From Nannobrachium achirus (taxonomy: Eukaryota > Chordata > Actinopteri > Myctophiformes > Myctophidae): 64,000 nt of DNA. A program made the translations under genes and the position numbers. This document shows, one piece after another, positions 7,107-63,147 of this stretch. How positions within the stretch are numbered: position 1 is the stretch's first letter; each line of letters opens with the position of its first letter. The notes below the pieces were generated by a model. That model was not told the origin of the DNA. It searched no databases and worked only from the letters and a program-made list of their open reading frames with translations. The stretch spans positions 1,469,501 through 1,533,500 of the forward strand of contig OY997653.1 in NCBI GenBank assembly GCA_963921795.1, written 5' to 3'.

Positions 7107-10100
7107 CTGACAACAAGAACAGCAGAAACAAACCCTTGAATATTTGCTCTAAAGATGCAGTACAATACAGCAGTGGCAATGATTATTTAGGCCTAGGATT
7201 ATTGAATGCTTTAACTGCTGAAAAATAGCAGATATACAAGCTCACAGCGCGGCACCGAGTGCCGCGCTGCAAGCTTGTAGATCTGCTATTTTTGAAAAAG
7301 TAAAAATGTGTGCAAATGTTTGAATATATGTATTTTTAAAGCGAACGTCTGTAACAAAAAAATTGCTTCTGGGGGGGTCCCTGGAACTAAATGTTTTGAG
7401 ATGCGGGTCCGTGGCCAAATAAATATCATTTTGGGGCTCCTACAAATGAAAAGGTTTGAGAACCACTGACATAGTAGTCTCTCAAGAACAGACTAACTGA
7501 GCTCCAGTTAAGTGAAAAGGACCTTTTCTTTGACAATGGCTGGCCAGATTGCTGAGTGCTGACATACAGTAGAAACATTAGAAGGATTCAAAAGACACTT
7601 ATAGAATCGGGTCAAAATTCTAATTTTCACGATTTAAAAAAAATAGCAGATCTACAAGCTCGCAGCGCTGCACTCGGTGCCACGCTGTGAGCTTGTAGAT
7701 CTGCTATTTTTTCAATAGTTAAAGCATAACATATGAAAATATTTTGTGACAGGGACCACCAGGAGAGAAGATCTGTGTAAAAGAAAGCAAACTAGCAGAT
7801 GTAAAAGCTCGCAGCGCGGCGCAAAGTGACTCGCTATGAGCATGTAGATCTGCTATTTGTGAATCGCTAACCTGTAAATGGGTTAAGTGGTTACAATGAT
7901 TGTGATGCTATGTTAACTAGTATTTGCTGGGGACCCCCTGGGGATCCCCTGAACCCATCTCAACACGGCAGCCAAAATTGCAATAATTCTCGAAGAGGAT
8001 AATTGGAAATTCAGCTAAGCTGCAGCCAAGTTATAAAAAAGGATAATGATTTAAAAAGAAAAGGGAAAATAAAACAAAGAGTATAAATGGCAAAATAATA
8101 AAAATGTGCATTTAATTATTGGGCTATAATAGCGAAATAAAGTTCTTCTAAGTAGAAGTCTACTCTAATCTACATGAGAATGGCAATAATAAGTAAGAAT
8201 CCATGCACTGGAGAGGGTAGTATGAGAGGGACCCCACTTTGAGATCAACTGGTCTAAGTTTGTTTTAGCAAAATGTCCATAAACTAACTAAACTAACCCT
8301 AACCCTAACCCTGTAAAAAATGACTCTCTTGTGGCCCATTTATGCACAACTAATGGAGACTAAGTGTGTATGAGACCAGAATGTGTCGGTAAGCAGAGTG
8401 AAAAGCAGATCAGGAATGGTGGCAGTAAAACAGTCTGTGTGGAACCAGGCCTCCTAACAGTATCATTCATCAGCATATATCACACACACGCTGCCCCCCC
8501 CCCCCCCGACCCCAAGCATGCAAGCTGGGGTCATTTAGGCCACTGGTTCTCAACCTGTGGGTCCCCAGATGATAATGTGCAACATTGTTTTCTCTGCACT
8601 CAACAGTAAACAAGCCAAGCAGCCAACATACCTTTTAAGTGAATAGAGGGTATCTGCACATTTCTAAAGTGACAATTTAAGGAGTTTGACATAGAAAATG
8701 ACAAATGAAACATCTGCCAAATGGTCAAATATTAGAGGCAGAAATTGTGAAAAGAGCTGATGTACATGCTCACTGTGTGGCGAGGCGTTGTGAGCATGTA
8801 GATCTGTTATTTTCACAATAGAACCGTGTTATACTAAATGTAATTACTCTCAACTCTTAAGTACCATGCATAGTAGTGCAGGAATACACAACACACGGAG
8901 GGGGAGAGTGATTTAATCCGGTTGCTCTGTAGGTCCGTATGTAATTTTCTCTGTCCGAAACCTTACGGACAACACTCAACCCGACGGATTAAAACCGATA
9001 AAAACATACGTACGCTTGAACTACACGTGGCGAACTTTTGTCAACCGTGGCAGTAGTGAGGAAAATTACTTATGACAGCGGTTCTGAAACTATGTGTCCC
9101 AACAAGAAATATAATTTAGCAAGAAACAGGAAAAAAGGAACGTCATTGCAATCACTGAAGAGGATGTCTGGACTCCTCACAGGCTCAAAAGGGCTTTATT
9201 GGCATGAGAAAACATACACACAAACGCGCGCACACACACTTACACCGCCTGTCCTCCAACAGCGAGACGGGTGCAGTGCACTTTGTTTTGTTATTATAAC
9301 TCAGTCCGGGTGGTTAAATCTGTACCTCTGTTCCTCGCAGAGTTGCATTTACCGCGATTGCCGACAGACAGCAGCTTATACAAAACATCACGTCGGTCGG
9401 TTTTTACACATGTGTGCTGTGAAGAACCACTTCCATGTGGCGCGTGGCCCCAACGGGAGCAGAATTGGAGCGGAGAGCGGGTTGGCACGTAAATAACGTA
9501 GAGAGGAACTATGCATGACGACGAATCTACCGTACGTACTCCCCTCTCTCACCCAAAAACATACACAAAATCACGCATACGTAACTATAAACGGCCCTAG
9601 GACACCTAGACCAGACCACCAGACCAGATCTAGACCAGATGCACATTCCAAAGGTAACCTCCTCATGCCAAGTGACTATACAAGCATTCTGAACACCTCA
9701 GTTAATCCACCCAGTATCTGCCAACGAGAGTTGAGGAACATATGGGTAAAAGAACTGCATTTGAGGTTAAATGTGAATACTATAGAGCAGGGGTCTTCAA
9801 CGTTTTCAGGCCGAGGACCCCTTAGCTGAGAGAGAGAGATGAAGCATGGACCCCCAGATTCCATATAGTTTCATTGTTTGACAGCACAATCATCAGTGTA
9901 TTTTGGATTCATATCAATATGCGTTGCAGATATTTAACCACTTGAATCATCAATACTTAATAAACTTGAACTTTCACTCTGTACTTAGTCTGCTCTTTTT
10001 TTCTCTTCTACACCAAACCTCTTTGCCAAAAATAGCCGATCTACAAGCTCACAAGCTTGTAGATCTGCTATTTTTGGCTAAAGTTCTCCGAATATGGACG

Positions 10101-13100
10101 CTAGGGTTCAAGTGGTTAATATAAAAAAGTAGAAAAAAGGTTTCTATCATACAAACATTTGGAGGGCCCCCGTAGTAACTCTGAAGACCCCCTAGGGGTC
10201 CCGGACCCCCTGTTGAAGACCCCTGCTATAGGGTGGCAACTGCCATCCCCTGAGACCCCAAATATCTCTCTCTCTCTCTCACACGCACGCACGCACACAC
10301 ACACACACACACACACACGCACGCACACACACACACACACAGGGGTCCCTTGCACCAAATATTGTCCGTGGCCTTGACATGCACATATGTTTGAGAGACA
10401 CTGATGTTAATGCCAGTGGTGGAAAAAGTACTGAATTAAAGTAAAGTCCGGAATTATTATTATTATTATTTATATATATTTGAAGAAAAAGTGCAAAAGT
10501 ATTGGTATCAAAATATACTCAAAGTACCAAAAGTAGAAATGTCCAGTGTTCAAATGTATACAAAATATTTTGAAAATAGCTGCGCTACAAGCTCACAGTG
10601 CATTGTGACATTTATTCAGATACCCTCAGAGTCTCCCGAGAGGGGGGGGAGTATGTGAGACTCAACAATACAAACATAACGGTAACAGCCCTTAACTAAT
10701 CACAGCTAACAAGATGGCTCACCTAAACAACATCAGCTGGGGAGAAATTGGAAGTAAAGTGTCACTGCGAGAACATCTGCAGGAACACAAAAGGTAAAAA
10801 TACATCAAGCCAGGACCAAGTGTGGAGAAGAGGGGTCACAGGTGCAGCGCACAACTTGGTTGGTGAGTTGGTGAGACGAAGGAGAACTCCAGGCAGGAAT
10901 AACCCCACAGTACTGGAGAACTCTACGCACCTGTGTCACCTCAAGACCTCAGGATGGACCCACCCAATACCTCCCCAGAGAAGCCTCTTGTTGGGAAAAA
11001 ACAAATAGAGCAGGAGAGGGGAGTTTAGCCTTGGTCAGGAGGAGGAGATGGGCAGTGATTTGGCCACCACTGCCGACCCGGCCATCAGGAGGGTGTTGTG
11101 GTTTGCGGGTCGAAACACCACCTATGATCGATGGTTACCACCTGAAGACATCAAATTTTCCTGGACAAGGCTACATTCACCAAACGTGAATGGAGGAGAA
11201 GCATCGTTAGATGTAATTATAATCTGAGCTTGTAGATCAGCTATTTTCAAATGGCTTGCGTAAATGTCCTTCAGTTACTTGACACCACTGGTTAAGGCAT
11301 TGGTTCTCAACCTTTTCAGGCCGCAATCCCCACAATAATCATATTTTAACTGGGGACCCCCCCCCCCCCCCCACCCTGACAACCATTAACAGTTGAGGCA
11401 TTATATTTTGTATAACACGGTTCTATTGTTGCGAGGCGCTGTGAGCATGTAGATCGGCTATTTTCACAATTTCTGCCTCTAATATTTGTCAATTTGGCCA
11501 ATGTTTAATTTGTCATTTTAGAAGTACTAAAAATTACAGCTAATAGAACTTTGGAATACCCTATACACTTACACTTTACAATGTTGCACATTAAGTGAAT
11601 CATCTGGGGACTCCCCCTCTCTTCCTCTCCATTCATTCTCCATGGCAATTAATCTTCTTGCCCTGTCACGGGGGAGTGGAGTGTGTGTGTGTGTGTGTGT
11701 GTGTGTGTGTGTGTGTGTGTGTGTGTGTGTGTGTGTGTGTGTGTGTGTGTGTGTGTGTGTGTGTGTGTGTGTGTGTGTGTGTGTGTGTGTGCGTGCGTGC
11801 GTGCGTGTAAAGCCCCTCCTCACTGAAGCTCCTTTATCTCTAAAGGCGTAATAAAGTTTGGAGCAGAGGAGAGCAGAGTCACAGACACGCGGGAGAAGAC
11901 TGGAGAACAACAACTGGACTTTACCTTCAATCTGCATCTTGGAATCAGAGTCAGCTTTAGACCTTTTCACTAATATCGTTTTTATTACATGTTTTTTAGA
12001 ACTTGTAATCAATCATTTAATCACAGGACCTTATATTTCTTAATATCGGTTATACCTTATCTTGAATCTTTTTTTGGCGTCTTAGTGTTTTACACGTTTG
12101 TATTTGACAGATAATAAGAAACGTCATTTTATCGATTGATAAAAACATGAAGGGTGAACGCCAGTCGCAGAGCGTGAGCGCAGCGCGTTGCTTCAACGTA
12201 AAGGTAAGGCCAAATAAAACGTCGGGTGACAATGTTTGTTCTTCTGATTAACTTTGAGATTACATTGCAACTTAGCCCTAGAATGGCTGTGACATTACAT
12301 AGCCTACATCAGTGGTTTGTAATACAGCATCACAATCATTTTAAACACTTTTTACACTGTATTTTATACTGTATGTTGGCGACATAAAAAAATAGCAGAT
12401 CTACAAAGTCACAAGGCATCACACTACGTGCCGCGCTGCAAGCTTGTACATCTGTTTTTTTTTAAATGTAGACTAATTTTGGATCTTTTTTTTAACTAGG
12501 ATAGTAGACTGACAGGAAAGGGGGAGAGAGATGGGGGATGACATGTGGCAAAGGTCGTCTGGATGGGGAATCGAACCGGCGACGCCAGCAGGCTTCATAG
12601 CCTAGTATGTGGTATGCGCCTTGACCACTAGGCCAGCGGGCGCCCCACCTCACATGCAAATTAATGCATTTTCCCCCCCTGTATAGTAAAGTTAATGGGA
12701 CCCCAACTTTCTGCACCTTCCCAGAGGGAAATTGTATTTCAATCTTAGTTGGACGCGTTTCTAGAAACCTCTACATTTCTTGCTAAGGAATTCCCCTGAC
12801 AGGGACGTGCAGAGAATGTTAGAGAGGCAGGGGCTGACATTTCTAAAAGTTCCTTTAGGTGGAAATATCGAAAATAGCAGACCTCCAAGCTCACACTCTC
12901 AGAGTTACAAACCTTTTAAGGGGTCATTTGGAACCCCCAAGGAACCATGAGGGTCCATGGACCACACTTTGAGACCCACTGTTGTAGCAACGCTGCAACG
13001 CATTGTGAGCTTGGAGGTCTGCTATTTTCGGTACTTGTTACTTGGTAAGTTGAGGAGAGGACAAGGCAAGGCAATTCTCTTGAATAATGCCTTCAGGTAT

Positions 13101-62755: not shown

Positions 62756-62930
62756 GCCTAGTGTGTCCAAATGGTCTTATTTCAGTCACAAGTTGTTGTT
62801 AATACCTTTCTCTGGTTAAATATGGGAGGTAGAGATGGTCTCTTACAGTTCACCTTCATGTCATATTGAGGATTACCCAACACAGCTATGGAGTTGGGGG
62901 GATTGAACCTACAGTACTGCAGATGCAGAA

Positions 62931-63147
62931 TAGAGATGGGACGATATGAAAATGTCATATCACGATTATTGTGACAAAAAAAATCCTGATTTACGATATT
63001 ATCACGATAATCAAAATCCATTATCCTGGGGCGGAACATTTGCCAAAAAATAGCAGATCTACAAGCTCACAACGCGTCACAACGTGGCGCGTTGTGAGCT
63101 TATAATAATATAGATAAACGATAATATCACGTATCGTCCCATCCCTA
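62931..63147. mobile_element. hAT MITE, TAGAGATGGGACGATA family, with hairpin
   Basis: Ends TAGAGATGGGACGATAT / GTATCGTCCCATCCCTA; flanks share TGCAGA. Hairpin at 63046-63103, cut short on the right arm. Confidence 0.85.

Follow-up and report, generated by a model that had tools for sequence, protein, structure and literature searches.

A 64,000-nucleotide stretch of the genome of the myctophid fish Nannobrachium achirus (contig OY997653.1 of assembly GCA_963921795.1, positions 1,469,501 to 1,533,500 of the forward strand; hereafter the window) is dense in miniature inverted-repeat transposable elements (MITEs), and one ancestral fold-back segment, with about 40 paired bases, a tight loop and one A.G mismatch, is the core common to many of their families. 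This hairpin core reaches new element ends by nested insertion, co-amplification and erosion of the inner ends in families F, I1 and I2, and probably in family A, and it is mostly inherited within families. Its arms differ by paired changes between families and by unpaired changes between copies of one family, which suggests selection for the fold in lineages that were still mobile.

The original prediction, made from the letters of the window alone, reported more than 40 copies of a near-palindrome. A covariance model (R1) bears this out with 41 distinct hairpin loci at E ≤ 1, of which 37 reach E < 0.001; because an alignment of 25 copies underlies the model, 25 of the 41 loci match it by construction. 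The arm sequence AGCAGATCTACAAGC has 14 exact matches in the window and 35 with at most two mismatches, and the arm sequence GCTTGTAGATCGGCT has 8 and 35, respectively. Arms lacking a partner also occur, 12 of them right arms and several of them left arms. Full copies measure 61 to 63 bases between their TAGC and GCTA ends, with a 3-base loop and a GC-rich tip that is missing in many copies, lengths of 30 to 58 being common, and the lower stem ranges in length from 0 to 18. The predicted position near the centre of the elements does not hold throughout, as offsets run from 0.16 to 0.69 (22 rows, some of which are spurious elements) and family C carries two hairpins, at 13877 and 14136, one towards each end of the element at 13799-14283. 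The type hairpin belongs to family E:

39485..39547, + strand: type hairpin core, running from TAGC to GCTA; ATAGTGGAAA forms the lower stem on either side, and there are one A.G mismatch and a 3-base loop

RNA folding of five hairpin loci, three of them on both strands, gave z-scores of -6.4 to -14.5 against shuffled sequences, the type hairpin reaching -13.6 and -14.5 on its two strands. The exact arm 21-mer AGCAGATCTACAAGCTCACAA occurs 46,526 times (23,302 + 23,224) in the 1.66-Gb assembly and its reversed control 0 times, and a 30-place pattern comprising the arm and lower stem, with a purine at the outer end, has 93,144 matches (46,520 + 46,624), against 0 for its control. The 21-mer count rejects chance palindromes, the kind of refutation foreseen with the original prediction. 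Twenty 10-kb stretches (200 kb) at set positions on 14 contigs outside the window contained 44 hairpins at E ≤ 0.01, with 15 of the 20 stretches positive; scaled to the assembly, this amounts to roughly 0.36 million hairpins, a figure based on rough E-values from a short calibration and on a small sample. At G000:C1:26700-34637, four L-type hairpins (lower stems AATAAGC/AAAGAAGC) are spaced about 2-3 kb apart.

The passage of the core to new ends can be followed directly in the window, where the predicted movement between MITEs takes the form of one element nested in another and amplified with it. Family F (TAGGGCATTCAC) holds its hairpin via a nested B element: in composite F1 the left B end is intact and the right part of B is cut, and F2 and F3 retain the hairpin while their B sequence lacks its first 20 bases. 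Family K (ATATCGTCGTTGTCGGG), listed in the original prediction beside the other ends, is an inner element that stands alone at 18172, 21814 and 37773 and is nested in the outer MITEs I1 and I2; the I2/K composite is also found with a duplication at locus L052. Five copies of family A, among them one (A9) that has lost the core, have TTAACCACTTGAA and TTCAAGTGGTTAA on the two sides of the hairpin. One hairpin outside any A element aligns to A copies from exactly TTAACC at 35112, as a TTAA-flanked inner element (A-in) would, a probable reading based on this one outside copy. Nesting, amplification and erosion in sequence explain how one core comes to lie under unshared ends. The elements concerned are as follows:

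33819..34333, + strand: composite F1, with F ends and target duplication GTATGCAT (8/8); nested B with its left end still present at 34004
58418..58877, - strand: composite F2, like F1 minus the first 20 bases of B; hairpin at 58542-58604
58954..59413, - strand: composite F3, neighbour of F2 and near-identical to it (flank 370/373)
21814..22079, + strand: carrier K, stand-alone; hairpin at 21932-21990
62270..62755, - strand: outer MITE I1 (CAGGGTTCCCCAAT), target duplication 7/8; K nested at 62387-62642
53945..54478, + strand: outer MITE I2 (CAGGGGTTCCCAAA), target duplication 7/8; K sequence from 54050
9788..10225, - strand: carrier A (CAGGGGTCTTCAAC), target duplication 7/8; inner repeat TTAACCACTTGAA (9934) / TTCAAGTGGTTAA (10107) around the hairpin at 10034-10069
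46985..47364, - strand: carrier A, target duplication CTCTAGAC (8/8); hairpin at 47199-47235
40940..41379, + strand: carrier A, target duplication CTCTAGTA (8/8); reduced hairpin
52497..52908, - strand: carrier A with the hairpin core lost; junction GCCAAAAATATTTTCGGC
35112..35225, + strand: hairpin flanked by TTAACCACTTGAACCC and not part of an A element; aligned with A copies six times, each alignment beginning exactly at 35112

The two near-identical F composites at 58418-59413 form a tandem pair with long GT repeats between and around them, and a third F end lies at 60625. K-like ends enclose a different centre, without a hairpin, at 29643-29806, and at 12876-13023 a G-family hairpin is interrupted between its arms by sequence that ends in CAGTGGGTCTCAAAG (reverse complement), that is, by a MITE end inside the hairpin.

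The ends under which the core is found are largely, though not wholly, as unlike one another as predicted. Among 16 end types, compared over 36 bases per end (the first C of L falls just outside), 102 of the 120 pairs are not alike at the 5% level, 12 are alike at p < 0.05 (about 6 expected) and six are alike beyond all 200 shuffles, namely A-B, A-I1, A-I2, B-I2, I1-I2 and J-P27. Counting innermost carriers, and so omitting ends that hold a hairpin only via a nested element (A, F, I1 and I2), leaves about eleven distinct types: B, C, D, E, G, H, J/P27, K, A-in, L and N29. Clustering of the flanks of 91 hairpins, a check proposed with the original prediction, likewise returned many clusters around one core (13 multi-member clusters and 18 singletons, two of the clusters corresponding to either side of family C, and a few of the singletons being false hits of the simple pattern).

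Most carriers are hAT-type MITEs by their 8-bp target duplications and YAG ends. The duplications match at 7 or 8 of 8 positions in copies of A, C, E, F, G, H, I1 and I2, and in copies at L029, L040 and L052. In the remaining families such duplications are weaker or were not seen: the 8-mers flanking J match at 6/8, B has both terminal repeats and a matching duplication in 0/4 copies, no 8-bp duplication was found for D, and none of the four hairpin-bearing K copies with both ends shows one. All but two of the 16 end types start with CAG or TAG, the exceptions being K, whose ends are compatible with TA, and A-in, which has TTAA at both ends; neither looks hAT-like, and these are the two such types among the innermost carriers. 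Families A, C, E, F, G, H and I thus share 8-bp duplications and CAG/TAG ends with the Ac-, Buster- and Tol2-like hAT MITEs, from which K and A-in differ in having no 8-bp duplications. To our knowledge, a shared internal hairpin is not part of the definition of the hAT superfamily. Beyond the window, the assembly holds more copies of A, of the I2/K composite, of E and of G, again with duplications, as well as additional carrier ends (TAGGGTTGCCAACC at L029, 8/8; TAGGCCTGGGGCGG at L027, 8/8; CAGAGGTGGGCAAC at L045). A search of the assembly with PF05699 gave 150 scored matches out of 1653 candidates, none of them tied to carrier ends. Over the 900 bases 3' of eight of these matches, a recognisable transposon end was absent in seven, and the one hairpin found (L057) lies in a K element past the transposon end read by eye. 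The other carriers in the window are:

39397..39766, + strand: carrier E, ends TAGGGCTGTCAC, target duplication GGGATGCG on both sides
22941..23343, + strand: carrier E, second copy; hairpin at 23064-23124, flanking 8-mers matching at only 4/8
35368..35790, + strand: carrier B (CAGTGGTTCTCAACC); hairpin at 35609-35647, tip shortened
13799..14283, + strand: carrier C (CAGGGGCGTCAC), target duplication 7/8; two oppositely oriented hairpins
32409..32900, + strand: carrier D (CAGTGGTGGAAAAAGTACT); hairpin at 32604-32656, right end not delimited
40227..40660, + strand: carrier G (CAGGGGCGTGCAGAG), target duplication GTCTCTAC (8/8); hairpin with paired changes GACCTCC
38165..38693, + strand: carrier H (CAGTGTTTTTGAC / CAGTGTTGATTTC), target duplication GGCACCAG (8/8); shortened hairpin at 38408
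62931..63147, + strand: carrier J (TAGAGATGGGACGATA), flanking 8-mers 6/8; hairpin from 63052, right arm damaged
26593..27064, - strand: carrier L (end CAGAGGTGGGCAAC as read in L045); hairpin at 26709-26736, tip deleted

Family C also occurs as chimeric MITEs, at 16374-16648 and 14538-15084, which combine one C end with one CAGTGGTGCTCAAA-type end or have that end mid-element.

Once acquired, the core mostly follows its family. On a tree of 37 hairpins (65 columns, F counted with B), the 13 family labels need 13 changes, where the minimum is 12 and the shuffled mean 24.4 (0/200 as low); B, K and G form clades, C needs 2 changes, and hairpin identity is 0.91 within families and 0.79 between them. 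At 10 places the flanks of a carrier enclose a hairpin that is shortened or gone. Where the breaks fall differs from one place to the next, and short repeats (GG, TA, AGT, TAGA) were read by eye at four of the places, so the lost hairpins look like deletions. The place at 36180 has a second possible reading, an empty site bearing AGT as a 3-base duplication; a hairpin jumping into MITEs by itself is accordingly rejected, though not fully. Two elements without the hairpin are:

36077..36259, + strand: K copy without the hairpin and its lower stem, inside I3 (35875-36364, target duplication GCTTAGGG)
6534..6946, + strand: A7, a MITE with A ends and a different interior, without the hairpin; target duplication ATATAAAG (8/8)

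Treating tip and arm as separate modules was also rejected: of 166 tip-like hits, 96 fall in listed hairpins and 29 beside a single arm, and the 41 armless ones, some of which are decayed hairpins, compare with about 30 expected by chance on our own arithmetic. Whether the hairpin decays more slowly than its flanks within families gave a mixed result that was not used (hairpin versus flank identity: A 0.926 vs 0.878, K 0.951 vs 0.847, E 0.878 vs 0.883, F 0.965 vs 0.992, and B 0.693 vs 0.893, the B hairpins being truncated; C flanks aligned poorly).

The arms of the hairpin have changed together between families and separately within them. In the 25-copy alignment, 84.1% of cells are paired, against 77.5% when shuffled and 32-46% when slid, and two-sided changes number 18 pairs (shuffled 13.9, 6/500 as high) and 92 cells (shuffled 44.8, 0/500). 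When nine family consensi are set against the global consensus, 25 of 36 changes are paired in both arms, 7 affect one arm and 4 are unpaired in both, whereas copies set against their own family consensus (32 used, 2 dropped) show only 2 paired changes out of 136, with 129 in one arm and 5 unpaired in both (Fisher p 2e-19). Counting distinct changes only, in the seven families with at least 3 copies, 15/21 are paired (p 2e-14). The contrast holds in the outer zone, which played no part in finding the hairpins (17/22 paired at family level vs 1/53 at copy level), and in the middle and tip taken together (8/14 vs 1/83). Across 13 family consensi (two left out), arm identity between families is 0.48 in the outer 10 bases, 0.88 in the middle 19 and 0.73 in the tip; pairing with the family's own other arm reaches 0.76, 0.90 and 0.81 in the same zones, and the left arm of one family against the right arm of another 0.49, 0.85 and 0.73. 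One position departs from this pattern. Arm position 5, following TAGC, is unpaired in 52/90 hairpins, compared with 23 for position 9, an excess due largely to family C, whose A.G sits there, and 4 to 17 for the other 14 positions. The A against C at position 5, an A.G in the stem, is kept in 7/9 family consensi.

Several neighbouring features complete the window. A 786-aa open frame at 23401-25761 (+) with charged- and serine-rich stretches matched nothing in Pfam at E ≤ 0.01; upstream lies a partial relative (22265-22654) that repeats its first part, with a family E MITE between the two. The open frame at 14070-14636 (+) has a RING finger (zf-RING_UBOX, E 4e-11) and adjoins and partly overlaps the C1 MITE and its right hairpin. 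A minisatellite at 17319-17963 keeps open frames on both strands (a repeating peptide), and a UnaL2 long interspersed element (LINE) 3' element (Rfam RF00436) lies at 42934-42988 (-), scoring 55.5 bits against a cut-off of 55 and being the only family to reach its cut-off in an Rfam scan of the window.

The original prediction had offered, besides movement between MITEs, that the hairpin is a required part kept by several transposases. Something does seem to keep the fold, as the paired family changes indicate, but it is not a requirement of the transposase, because differing ends and duplications carry the hairpin and A7, with its perfect duplication, lacks it. We lean, short of even confidence, towards a shared fold-back core that is selected as a fold in mobile lineages and gives its carrier an advantage in cis; that this advantage is independent of the transposase is suggested by the pairing contrast. 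Selection on single elements needs a benefit private to the carrier, which favours a role in cis over one through small RNAs. Held more guardedly still is the broader proposal that this is a transposase-independent, structure-selected domain passed by nesting among hAT-like, TA-type and TTAA-type MITEs and raising the copy gain of its carriers. Folding from intact duplex is unlikely with a GC-rich tip, a single strand being the likelier starting point, and our preferred, weakly held guess at a mechanism is consequently fork holding in replication. The strand would fold once the element is single-stranded at replication, the folded strand would hold the fork within the element, and the held fork would favour transposition after one sister is copied; copy number would then rise for any cut-and-paste element so held.

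Several observations weigh against this explanation. A GC-rich tip disfavours cruciform extrusion from duplex DNA, mobile copies without the hairpin exist (6534-6946), and the lower stem varies widely in length (median 6). Further pair types in the 25-copy alignment number 44 against 40.7 when shuffled (53/500 as high), which is not significant. The family consensi derive from 2 to 10 copies with strands hand-chosen by the mismatch, and lower stems may have been swapped wholesale rather than base by base. In the hairpin tree, A (4 changes) and E (2) are scattered and form no clades, and only 2/34 inner branches are well supported.

An unlikely, though by no means negligible, alternative is that the hairpin is a functionless passenger, captured by nesting, whose arms are kept complementary by template switching or inter-arm correction in active lineages. 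Nesting is documented here, copies without the hairpin have intact duplications, and palindromes are known to undergo correction by template switching. Dead copies, however, are almost uncorrected (2/136 changes paired), so that arms corrected in place do not account for the pairing seen between families, and the A.G mismatch, which arm-to-arm correction would have erased, persists in 7/9 families beside paired changes such as the GACCTCC found in both arms of G.

We give less credence to a role at the RNA level, in which read-through transcripts would fold and be cut like a microRNA or endogenous small interfering RNA precursor, the conserved middle being the mature product. Such a role would suit a lower stem and tip kept as structure only around a middle conserved in sequence (the 0.48, 0.88, 0.73 profile, which is similar to the one known from microRNA precursors), as well as the strong RNA folds on both strands; compensatory changes are also described for zebrafish Angel MITEs in long non-coding RNAs (lncRNAs) in the available text of PMC3636048. 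The two strands fold equally well, though, and a benefit spread over all copies is hard to select in one element. No Rfam family reaches its cut-off for the hairpin (the MIR841 hit has 35 bits vs 200), six 15-16-base arm pieces are printed in none of the open-licence PMC main texts searched, and a fixed lower-stem length of the primary-microRNA type is rejected by lengths of 0 to 18. It is improbable that the core works in duplex form, as a palindrome whose two inverted sites a host or transposase protein binds; the 19-base middle is indeed conserved more strongly than the rest and occurs as two inverted copies, but paired family-specific lower stems and tips would be left unexplained. Least credible is vertical descent alone from one ancient MITE whose ends diverged past recognition, which draws on the related ends of A, B, I1 and I2 and of J and P27 and on inheritance of the core within most families, yet can hardly be maintained for F and I, given the nesting visible in F, I1 and I2 and the differing duplications (8 bp, TA-like, TTAA). 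Three to four families show their nesting directly, and such descent may still hold for the others.

Conserved internal segments under differently sourced ends have a precedent in the central domains of short interspersed elements (SINEs), such as CORE, V and Deu, whose function is likewise described as unknown. Those domains occur in RNA-copied retrotransposons and, in the available portion of PMC6887750, are not described as hairpins, whereas the segment found here is a fold-back in cut-and-paste MITEs. The hairpin carriers share with SINEs an internal segment beneath unrelated ends; they differ in having inverted ends and mostly 8-bp duplications in place of the RNA polymerase III head and LINE tail of an RNA-copied carrier. 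The closest case in that text is MER6, a DNA-transposon MITE that took up the SINE V domain when another element nested in it and then spread the domain (PMC6887750), though it concerns one MITE family and a SINE-derived domain rather than about eleven innermost carrier types and a hairpin core. By analogy, the fold-back might be regarded, with the same reserve as the broader proposal above, as the DNA-transposon counterpart of the SINE central domains. Among teleost MITEs, the high-copy, inverted-repeat zebrafish element Angel also folds into a stem-loop, with compensatory changes in two lncRNA copies (PMC3636048); going by its description alone, its stem consists of the long inverted repeats of a single family, whereas here the core is shared across families. 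The Atlantic cod element gadMor-hAT-1784 is likewise a hAT-derived fish MITE with many internal inverted repeats; it has ends of ~600 bp made of 167-169-bp tandem units, and the accessible text describes no core shared between families (PMC12368964). Pattern searches for relatives in viral and prokaryote collections gave 0, 1 and 1 hits, both single hits lacking a second arm. In keeping with the original prediction, no description of such a module was found in open-licence PMC main texts; a prior description in Repbase is possible.

Accounts of MITEs generally look to their ends only. A core that lies under many ends, with roughly 0.36 million copies and paired changes between families, would mean that the interior can matter too, in a manner common to different transposases. 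The comparison of paired changes at family level with unpaired changes at copy level is a simple test that can be applied to any fish genome, and it would make the strong multiplication of some MITEs a directly testable question.

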